From Affinundibacterium flavidum (GTDB lineage: Bacteria; Pseudomonadota; Gammaproteobacteria; Burkholderiales; Burkholderiaceae_D): a DNA stretch of 64,000 nucleotides. Where the stretch lies: the NCBI RefSeq assembly GCF_014284175.1, contig NZ_JACOGA010000010.1, positions 62,001 to 126,000 of the forward strand. Reading direction: 5' to 3'. The translations under genes and the position numbers were made by a program. Position 1 is the first letter of the stretch. Every line of letters starts with the position of its first letter. The notes under the pieces were generated by a model. It did not search any database. It was not told the DNA's origin and saw only the letters and a list, made by a program, of their open reading frames with translations. Positions 21,961 to 24,172 of this stretch are shown here, in pieces.

Positions 21961-23010
21961 ATGAAAAAGATTAAGAACGACTCGCTTATGGAGTTTCGTA
22001 ACGAGCTCCGCAGTGAGTTCGGTAATGAGTTCAGCAGTGAGCCCACTACTGAACTTTCTCAAGATCTGAATAACCGCGGTAAAGCGCGCAGACAGATCTT
22101 ATTTTATTCTCTGCTTCCTTTGAATTTTTTAGCGCTATCGGTGAGTGCCAAGTCTTTCATTGCAGCAGAAAGATCGGCTGCCAGACCTGCAGATTTTTCG
22201 ATAGCGGAACCAGACAACCACCTTGGTTTAGCCTTGGTTTTACCACTAGCGCTGAGAGACGCGAGTCAATTACTTAGTTCGAATCTCACCGACTATCTGA
22301 TGAGTGAAAAATTAGATGGCGTGCGAGCCTATTGGGATGGTAAGAAATTGTATTTTCGAAGCGGCCGTGTGATTAATGCGCCAGCGTGGTTCACCGAAAA
22401 ATTTCCTACACATCCTATGGATGGCGAATTATGGATGGGACGTGCGCAATTTGAACGCTTATCTGGTGCGGTACGGCGACAGCAAGCCAATGACCAAGAG
22501 TGGCGACAAATTCAATATTGCTTGTTTGAATATCCTTTGGCTAAAGGTGAATTTCGTCAGCGTTTGCAAGATTTGCAAAATACGGTGGACAAACTACATA
22601 TTCCTTGGCTGCGTATCATCCCACAAGAATCGGTGAAGTCCGTAGAACAAATCGAAGCAAAGCTCAAACAACTGAGCTTGCAGAAAGCGGAAGGATTGGT
22701 TTTACACCTGGCGAGTGCAGAATTTCAGGCGGGGCGCAGTGAGTTCGTTTATAAATTGAAACCACAACATGATGCAGAAGCGAAAGTAATCGCTATACAA
22801 GCTGGTCAAGGAAAATATCAAGGCATGATGGGGGCTTTACTGCTTGAGACTTCAGAAGGCAAACGCTTCAAGCTTGGTACAGGTTTTGACGACGAACAAA
22901 GAAGAAATCCACCACAGGTCGGCTCTTTGATTACCTATCGTTATCGTGATTGGACTGCTAGCGGATTACCCAAATTTGCTAGTTTTGTGCGTGTGTATCG
23001 ACCTGAATAA
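21961..23010 (+). CDS. ATP-dependent DNA ligase, exported Lig E type
   Basis: A minimal ATP-dependent DNA ligase. The nucleotidyltransferase motif I is SEKLDGVRAYWDG with AMP-accepting Lys117; motif III FEYPL, motif IV EGLVLHL and motif V VYKLKP follow, then an OB-fold (about 265-349). Lig E enzymes usually have a signal peptide and are thought to act on DNA in the periplasm or outside the cell. Here a hydrophobic segment (about 46-62, ending VSA) is preceded by an unusually long, charged 45-residue N terminus containing an eight-residue repeat. A later start is possible but there is no ATG before motif I. The gene is monocistronic. The NAD-dependent replicative ligase is separate, at 37.3 kb. 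Confidence 0.85.
   Translation: MKKIKNDSLMEFRNELRSEFGNEFSSEPTTELSQDLNNRGKARRQILFYSLLPLNFLALSVSAKSFIAAERSAARPADFSIAEPDNHLGLALVLPLALRDASQLLSSNLTDYLMSEKLDGVRAYWDGKKLYFRSGRVINAPAWFTEKFPTHPMDGELWMGRAQFERLSGAVRRQQANDQEWRQIQYCLFEYPLAKGEFRQRLQDLQNTVDKLHIPWLRIIPQESVKSVEQIEAKLKQLSLQKAEGLVLHLASAEFQAGRSEFVYKLKPQHDAEAKVIAIQAGQGKYQGMMGALLLETSEGKRFKLGTGFDDEQRRNPPQVGSLITYRYRDWTASGLPKFASFVRVYRPE
21991..22062 (+). repeat. 24-bp coding tandem repeat in the ligase N terminus
   Basis: Three 24-base units (21991-22014, 22015-22038, 22039-22062) encode EFRNELRS, EFGNEFSS and a degenerate EPTTELSQ. Frame is kept. The repeat lies before the hydrophobic export segment. Confidence 0.7.
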
Positions 23011-23056
23011 ATTAAGAAAAAGATGAAAAAGGAGATATGGGAAACAGGTGGAAAAT

Positions 23057-23416
23057 TAGGGTCTGTTGACATATATTTTAGGCAAGTGAATGCGCGCAAA
23101 TGAGCACAGGGCTAGGCTATCGCTATAGGAAAGTTCCCTTGCAAGGGAACTCCGTTACGTCAGCGGACAGCATGCTGTCCGAAACCCTGACTACACCGCA
23201 AGCTGCGCGGTAGCGGGTTTTAAACAACATGCACTATAAGCAGATTGCAACACCGCCATGTGCCCATTTGAGCCATTCCCGGAGGGTTTCACTCAAAACG
23301 CACGATGAACAGCGTTGCATCTCTTGCTGGGGCGGCCAGCCGCAGCGGCGAGATGCGCCTTGCCATCCTGCGTTTTGAATGAAACGCTTGCCTAAAATAT
23401 ATGTCAGCAGACCCTA
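23057..23416. mobile_element. MITE-like non-coding element with 30-bp terminal inverted repeats
   Basis: The outer 30 bases at the left (23057-23086) and right (23387-23416) are inverted copies with one mismatch at position 10 from the end. Each end reads TA then GGGTCTG inward, so a TA target duplication (23057-23058, 23415-23416) is plausible, as for IS630/Tc1-type elements. No coding frame of note lies inside. The interior is highly folded: perfect 18-base palindromes at 23133-23150 and 23164-23181, and nested arms 23286-23302 with 23369-23385 and GCATCTC/GAGATGC (23317-23323, 23350-23356). It fills the gap between the converging ligase and binding-protein genes, and supplies the latter's stop codon. 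Confidence 0.75.
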
Positions 23417-24172
23417 GTCGATCATATACTTTTTCTTGAGTGTTTCGATGAGACCTGAGGCTCTTACTTTTTCAAATGCGTGACGAATTTTTTCTATGAT
23501 CACTGGTTCAGTTTTTTTGTTAATGGCAAAGTAGAACAGGAATTCATCGTTTAGTAGATACACGGGTTCCATAGCATCTTTGGGGTAAGGTAACTGACTC
23601 AATTCGTAATTCGCACCACCATTCGTCGCCAAAATAAGATCAACTCGCTTGAAGAAGAGCTTCTTAACATTCGATGCTGTGGTCGGCGCCTCATCAATTT
23701 GTTCTCGCGGGAAAAATCCGCGCTCCATCACCAATTTGAGACTAGAGGTATCGCGTACGATACTCACTTTATATTTTTTTAAGTCTTCTTTATCTTTGAT
23801 CTGTATGTCAGTGCGTTCTTTTAATTTGAATAGCCATAATTTTCTGATGCCAATCGGGCCTATCCATTCAAATAAATTCTCACGATCGGGGGTTCTGGTC
23901 GTCGTATAAAGCAAGGTGTTTGCTTCAGTGCTGGCGTGTTGATAGGCACGATTCCAACTTATGAGCGTGTAATTAGCGTCTAGGGCGGCTTCCTGTAATA
24001 CAGCCTGCAGCAATTCAGTCGAATAGCCAGTGAGTTTGCCTTCAATATAGTAGCTATAAGGTGGCCAGGCCTGGGTGTACACCTGCAAAGTTTGTGCTTG
24101 AAGAAGCGAGACAGGCGTCATCAGTGATAACACCAAACACGCTTGAGACAGTAGCAAACAAGATGTACGCAT
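23414..24172 (-). CDS. Periplasmic solute-binding protein, SBP_bac_3 family
   Basis: A 252-residue extracytoplasmic binding protein with a signal peptide (cleavage near LLQAQ, residue 27) and the family-3 start LQVYTQAWPPYSYYIEGKLTGYSTELLQAV. This family binds amino acids or related small ligands; stand-alone members without permease genes, as here, are frequent in beta- and gamma-proteobacteria and their ligand is not predictable. The stop codon TAG falls on the TA border and first base of the MITE-like element, so the C terminus (KKKYMID) may be slightly altered from the ancestral one. Confidence 0.85.
   Translation of the reverse strand: MRTSCLLLSQACLVLSLMTPVSLLQAQTLQVYTQAWPPYSYYIEGKLTGYSTELLQAVLQEAALDANYTLISWNRAYQHASTEANTLLYTTTRTPDRENLFEWIGPIGIRKLWLFKLKERTDIQIKDKEDLKKYKVSIVRDTSSLKLVMERGFFPREQIDEAPTTASNVKKLFFKRVDLILATNGGANYELSQLPYPKDAMEPVYLLNDEFLFYFAINKKTEPVIIEKIRHAFEKVRASGLIETLKKKYMID

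Follow-up and report, generated by a model that had tools for sequence, protein, structure and literature searches.

What is a strongly folding stretch of 360 bp without a gene doing between two converging genes, and what in it has been kept, its ends or its inside? The element lies at positions 23057-23416 of the window (the whole 64-kb stretch of DNA that was analysed). As the initial annotation had described, it is closed by inverted arms of 30 nt (23057-23086 and 23387-23416) with a single mismatch (29/30), the outermost dinucleotide at either end is TA, and no coding frame lies inside (no ORF of at least 60 aa; the longest stop-free run has 59 codons). The inverted repeat without TA is 28 bp. 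The search of the window for inverted ends returned 2 matches, with 0.00 expected. A nested long hairpin (arms 23286-23302 and 23369-23385) was recovered as well, with 16/17 positions pairing. The two internal palindromes are perfect, as annotated, but only one has the reported 18 bp, the other having 20 bp (Table 1); 2 further perfect palindromes of at least 16 bp occur in the window. Strong folding, which had been expected, is borne out: RNA folding of the element gave z-scores of -14.1 (+ strand) and -12.9 (- strand), and 0 of 100 shuffles were as stable on each strand. The flanking ORFs do converge. The left one (21961-23010, + strand) has a DNA-ligase OB-like domain, and the right one (23414-24172, - strand) codes for a family 3 solute-binding protein, its stop codon overlapping the right TA of the element. 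Behind the TA, the element begins with GGG, and a stop codon whose TA serves as the insertion target is thereby kept as a stop, TAG. Among called ORFs, an overlap of 1 base with the stop codon is seen for 7 of 56 copies (window, at 23414-23416; L040, L041, L046, L134, L138 and L140).

Table 1. Parts of the element, in coordinates of the window.
Feature	Position	Strand	Evidence or remark
TA target duplication, left copy	23057..23058	.	both flanks TA in 42/56 extracted elements
Left terminal inverted repeat, 28 bp	23059..23086	+	31 own-genome places at ≤3 mismatches; reversed-pattern control 0
Arm P2, enlarged by module	23086..23278	+	covariance model R2, 49.6 bits, E 6e-11; window copy outside the R2 rows
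Palindromic module, 83 nt (G000:C2:85115-85197)	23115..23197	+	missing from 264-bp copies; model R3, 104.7 bits, E 9e-26, R3 being built from 17 rows with this same sequence among them
Hairpin 1 of module, perfect 20-bp palindrome	23132..23151	.	both-sided changes among related modules
Hairpin 2 of module, perfect 18-bp palindrome	23164..23181	.	both-sided changes among related modules
Arm P3, the long nested hairpin	23275..23389	+	model R1, 119.4 bits, E 2e-24; window copy outside the R1 rows
Hinge hairpin CCCGGAGGG, between P2 and P3	23278..23286	.	sequence reading and column conservation in 57 rows
Right terminal inverted repeat	23387..23414	-	inverted-repeat search
TA target duplication, right copy	23415..23416	.	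part of the stop codon of ORF 23414-24172

The element is one of many. The genome that contains the window (G000, 5.17 Mb in 102 contigs) has 76 matching pieces, and 22 of 23 candidate places carry a complete element with two ends. Two partnerless ends were inspected by reading (L031 and L032), and no recognisable transposase ORF was seen next to either. Matches, some of them to the internal module only, were found in 29 of 43 Undibacterium genomes, the own genome included. From 60 candidate loci, 56 complete elements were extracted, with L017, L044, L062 and L143 left out as incomplete. TA borders both flanks in 42 of these 56 genus elements; the preceding base is C or T in 39 of the 42, and the following base is A or G in 41. 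A sister copy (L016) splits a gene that we take to be KTSC-like. TA borders the insertion on both sides, and its flanks, when joined with one TA, read ...RVELNDGTAIDYAGVGQEV..., restore the frame VELNDGTAIDY and match 5 relatives without gaps (78-86% identity). Such an empty site with a single TA was thus obtained for the sister copy but not for the window copy, where the matches in 10 other genomes reach the left gene only. The 22 complete copies, together with a sister copy that interrupts a gene intact in 5 relatives, lead us to class the family, from its sequences, as MITEs, i.e., non-autonomous elements with past mobility, of which the copies, the TA duplication and the sister copy's empty site are the signs. 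The initial annotation had proposed a non-autonomous mobile element with a TA duplication and had called for a look at copy number; both are answered in its favour, with further copies in relatives. An exact pattern for one arm strand, searched across 84,980 species, occurred in 46 stretches, among them 36 titled Undibacterium, 8 from genus-less assemblies of Oxalobacteraceae, Burkholderiales or Betaproteobacteria, 1 from Collimonas and 1 from Escherichia albertii. The last looks like a chance match, with no element around it. No match pointed to a phage or plasmid origin, and the exact arm pattern was absent from the viral contigs searched.

The inside of the element has a recurrent architecture. 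The length is 264-266 bp in 30 of the 38 module-free elements and 260-286 bp in the others. In the consensus of the 38, an outer stem is followed by arms P2 and P3 with a short CCC-GGG hinge between them. Alignment A1 consists of these 38 elements (38 of 39 short forms, L145 having been dropped because of its module, which has a deletion; the 17 long forms were left out). Both-sided changes occur in 50 of its 97 pairs, and 97.6% of cells are paired. Its 443 both-sided cells compare with 136.5 ± 9.9 after shuffling (0/500) and with at most 45 in slid controls. For A2 and A3, 17 and 14 of 19 non-redundant rows were used, rows with extra loops having been dropped. When 57 arms from across the class are aligned, 27 of 33 pairs are changed on both sides, with 474 both-sided cells against 116.4 ± 10.5 after shuffling (0/500); since this alignment is fitted to the model, the both-sided count leans towards structure, and A5 contains rows that built its model and is fitted to the structure of the same model. 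Over the 57 arms, the loop motif of arm P3, GCGTTGC..CTTG..GCG..GCGCCTTG, is largely conserved, and so is the hinge, where six C/G columns are each conserved in at least 80% of the rows and four of them in at least 95%. Since this shape persists although the sequence changes and the ends vary between groups, the shape itself may be the target of selection.

The two arms appear to be related to each other. The P2 model matches the opposite strand of P3 in L174 (E 1.4e-9) and in L019, L010 and the window copy (E 1.6e-6 to 1.4e-5, with 1.4e-5 for the window). The hairpins being nearly palindromic, each of the two models also hits its own arm on the opposite strand, which weakens the comparison of P2 with P3 within Undibacterium. 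Stronger evidence comes from the P3 model, which finds both arms on opposite strands in L292 (66 and 64 bits) and in L240 (100 and 61 bits). For this reason, P2 and P3 are read, at the level of sequence and model matches, as probable inverted homologues.

The core extends well beyond the genus. In the family, the P3 covariance model matched 89 of 294 genomes (18 of 44 genera), and in the class 66 of 369 (52 of 272 genera), the own genome being included in both counts; as the covariance searches scored 10-15 candidates per genome, copy numbers are minimum values. A model placed the second arm where it was expected at 13 of 19 class-level loci, for three of them only at E 0.004-0.023. The span between the outermost paired bases is 252-271 bp in 18 of the 19, and their ends are unrelated (TAGTGCTCTATCAA.., GTACTCTTTCAA.., TAGGGAAGCTCTG.., TAGTGTCCCTTAACA.. 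and TAGTGGGCCAAGTGG.. are found at different loci). By reading, TA is present on both sides at only 9 of the 19. Of 30 loci examined for ends, one at class level (L302) is devoid of a convincing end pair. In L290, L292, L297, L303, L206, L217 and L224, the end sequence past the first 6-10 bases is private to the locus yet symmetric. Private but symmetric ends imply that the outer stem drifts while staying paired.

The window copy is longer than the module-free form. A stretch of about 80 bp is extra in 10 of the 22 complete own-genome copies and missing from the other 12, and the two dense palindromes of the window element are parts of this 83-nt module. The suspicion that the palindromes are more than transposition needs was therefore well placed. 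The module is located at GGGCTAGG^CG in arm P2, and it has the same position in the divergent copy L018. Related modules (81-84 nt, 17 extracted) were located by blastn. Reading of the loci placed some of them in P3, at a like motif or within about 2 nt of it (L008/L034, L063/L175 and L257), and others inverted in P2 (L056/L156). A second small element, with AGGACTTACGCAAAA ends (L049-L059, from other Undibacterium genomes, at about 1400-1800 in each), contains 1-3 modules in tandem. Its module lies at GCAAGG^CG, a motif that resembles the arm loop. Alignment of the 17 modules reveals both-sided changes in 18 of their 21 predicted pairs, and the covariance model of the module has matches in 182 of 294 family genomes (31 of 44 genera), again counting the own genome. 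Judged by these alignments and matches, the module is a separate unit, a widespread folded repeat of its own.

Which transposase moved the element can be approached through its ends. Of the outer 16 bases of the window element, 15 and 14 agree with L068 at its two ends and 13 with L084, and 14-15 are identical to those of L068, L071, L077 or L078. L068, L070, L071 and L084 have 837-856 bp between their TAGGG.. ends, and their end variants ..GTTGACATAT and ..GTTAACATTT also occur among the small elements. A transposase split across two ORFs is encoded in L068, L071 and L084. In all three, which are those tested, both halves score above the cut-off of NF033580 (NCBIfam, IS5 family), and the split transposases also match PF13340 and PF01609. 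PF13340 is present in 17 of 42 genomes of the genus, and several of its loci there are those with matching ends. The own draft genome (102 contigs) has no PF13340 match, and its single PF01609 match is interrupted by a stop. Assembly gaps frequently coincide with insertion sequences, so that absence from this draft is not firm; the family may be dormant in its own genome, or the insertion sequence may lie within an assembly gap. A full insertion sequence with the same ends, which had been proposed as a check, thus exists in relatives, but the own genome lacks a PF13340 match. In sequence, the outer ends of the element agree with those of IS5-family insertion sequences from relatives and not with IS630/Tc1. 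The initial annotation had guessed at IS630/Tc1-type transposases, and a TA duplication is indeed typical of that family. The IS5-family transposase (NF033580, PF13340/PF01609) in three of three tested elements with matching ends replaces this guess; IS630/Tc1 parentage was rejected on these grounds, and a MITE of that type is hardly credible. Within Undibacterium, the same core is also found between TAGAACTCATTTCATAAATAG ends (L238 and L240), which have 2 to 89 matches per genome in the six genomes searched. An autonomous element with TAGAACTCATTTCATAAATAG ends was not seen in 12 stretches. Many copies of the core between TAGAACTCATTTCATAAATAG ends occur at L237-L240 and L257 (Undibacterium G040, G020, G014 and G009). 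A different kind of mobiliser, a Y1 transposase (RAYT or IS200-like) that would move the element as single-stranded DNA in the manner of a REPIN, is very improbable: insertion by the REPIN/RAYT system is not known to produce a target duplication, whereas the element has a 2-bp TA duplication and ends in common with IS5-type insertion sequences. It does consist of an inverted pair of related hairpins with compensatory changes in the stems, as in the REPINs of the available text of PMC3116915, and Y1 transposases are present in 41 of 42 genomes of the genus. However, the arm models match at just 1 of 30 Y1 loci (1.5-kb flanks), and with one nearby arm among these 30 (the module was looked for there by a crude regular expression), a Y1/RAYT origin of the arms was discarded. 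The single case is a lone arm-like match of both models near a Y1 transposase gene (L099:684-800).

If IS5-family transposases account for the ends, it still has to be explained why the inside covaries. If one strand acted as an RNA, GU pairs should outnumber AC mismatches on that strand. Among strand-neutral imperfect pairs (predicted on both strands), 23 broad rows have 19 GU and 21 AC (20 and 33 when L173, a spurious coding match and one of 24 broad rows, is included); the 57 arm rows have 22 GU and 20 AC when one U-G-majority column is excluded. Single-sided changes between copies of at least 95% identity are likewise distributed over GU (106), AC (100) and other (98). Opposite indications come from the A1 arm pairs of P2 and P3 (GU 30 and 17 versus AC 8 and 9; the outer stem has 12 versus 13) and from copy pairs below 90% identity, where GU exceeds AC 1.8 to 3.2 times; both of these counts use a structure derived on the + strand. 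Near equality in the strand-neutral counts fits folding as DNA, or copying of arms, better than one RNA, and the evidence leans towards a constraint at the DNA level or on both strands. A structured RNA, a two-way terminator or an mRNA-stability element that acts when transcribed with the neighbouring genes is accordingly an unlikely function. Its attractions are the very stable fold on both strands, the excess of GU over AC in the A1 arm pairs, and the effects on neighbouring genes ascribed to BOX and similar folded repeats in the part of PMC3049150 at hand; moreover, a requirement on both strands would also yield strand symmetry. However, no terminator-like site (GC-rich hairpin with a T run) was found in 22900-23600, and the 50 classified copies, based on crude ORF calls, show no preference for convergent genes (11 convergent, 10 divergent and 29 tandem), so that the two-way terminator of the initial annotation is not upheld and its single-strand RNA function is disfavoured by the strand-neutral counts, with the other counts leaning the opposite way. 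Nor did Rfam 15 yield a match covering the element, either for the window (at gathering thresholds and at E up to 1) or over 14 relatives and 14 class-level loci. Two sub-threshold matches on relatives, and a t44 RNA and a weak threonine-leader match on class-level loci, lie outside the element or at its edges. A tRNA-like or Rfam RNA identity was thus dismissed for the element. Near an element copy of the own genome, L018:968-1032 matches a Betaproteobacteria toxic sRNA family at 42.3 bits, below the gathering threshold of 50. Another possibility is that the family is an ordinary one of MITEs and that its covariation arises as a side effect of intrastrand template switching, or of repair, that keeps copying arm onto arm, without selection for a fold. 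In favour of this, the inner part of the ends varies between elements yet is mostly symmetric, and copies of at least 95% identity show 73 compatible double changes versus 304 single-sided ones (81 pairs). Such frequent double changes in close copies could result either from fast compensation or from arm-to-arm template switching. The near equality of the strand-neutral imperfect pairs would fit as well. Copying does not account for the conserved loop bases, which remain unpaired within covarying stems in 57 class-wide rows and argue for selection on fold plus loop, or for a length that stays near 265 bp despite unrelated ends. Unpaired positions of this kind are what homogenisation should remove. 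We consider a mere copying by-product to be rather improbable, though it deserves attention.

The explanation that we favour, and hold to be probable for the data as a whole, is a TA-target MITE mobilised by IS5-family transposases, with a conserved foldback core that is kept as a DNA fold. The 28-bp ends would let these transposases act on the element in trans. Between the ends, the core is built from a stem followed by two inverted, related arms about the CCC-GGG hinge, each arm holding a conserved loop motif inside covarying stems, and P2 of the window copy carries the separate 83-nt double-hairpin module. We infer that the fold is kept as single-stranded or cruciform DNA and helps the mobilisation or survival of the element, a benefit that is probably mediated by a putative protein reading the loop motif. 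The core would repeatedly have acquired new ends. A more far-reaching reading can be offered only tentatively. The elements may form one superfamily of mobile folded DNA that runs through the class and whose unit of selection is the fold and not the ends. Its core, about 230 nt long with the two inverted arms and their conserved loop motif, would be read as single-stranded or cruciform DNA by a putative conserved protein. The core would borrow its ends from several unrelated transposons and would in turn house, at a specific site, a second folded mobile module, that of 83 nt.

MITEs are usually viewed as decayed transposons that are held together by their ends alone. In the present family, a shape is preserved on the inside throughout the class and it is the ends that change, which reverses the usual view and raises the question of whether the fold, not the ends, controls spread. 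The 83-nt module is a case of a folded element at one recurrent place inside others. With the covariance models, a part of the intergenic DNA of proteobacteria that appears to be uncatalogued can now be annotated. No report of the element family was recognised in the open-licence PMC literature searched.

Several known systems are similar in part. IS5-type MITEs of bacteria, as far as they are described in the available portion of PMC10969869, are likewise short, gene-less and multicopy, have terminal inverted repeats and a TA duplication, are thought to be mobilised in trans and have a stable predicted fold. Unlike them, on that same partial description, the present element has a core that is kept as a fold class-wide, between unrelated ends and with conserved loop motifs. 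QMITE1 and QMITE2 of Coxiella burnetii are also multicopy folded MITEs, and CbsR13 RNA (QMITE1) folds as a very long palindrome; compared by description in the accessible text (PMC5896051), they differ from the element in the 7-9-bp duplications of QMITE2 and in an IHF site at QMITE1 loci. The pneumococcal BOX is, according to the sections of PMC3049150 at hand, a composite repeat with outer parts around a variable number of boxB modules, and in S. suis the same inner module of BOX lies between different outer parts. An inner module in variable number between outer parts and a strong fold are thus common to both, again by description; unlike in BOX, the module number in the core is 0, 1 or 2, and the second element has as many as 3 in tandem (L058). 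REPINs consist of two inverted hairpin units with compensatory changes, the hairpins being predicted in single-stranded DNA or mRNA (PMC3116915, in the text available). From these, the element differs by arms of about 115 nt instead of short REPs, by the TA duplication, by IS5-type ends and by the absence of any observed association with RAYT, insofar as that text describes the REPIN side. Without implying identity with either, the modular build of the element resembles that of BOX as there described, and its inverted hairpin pair resembles that of REPINs.
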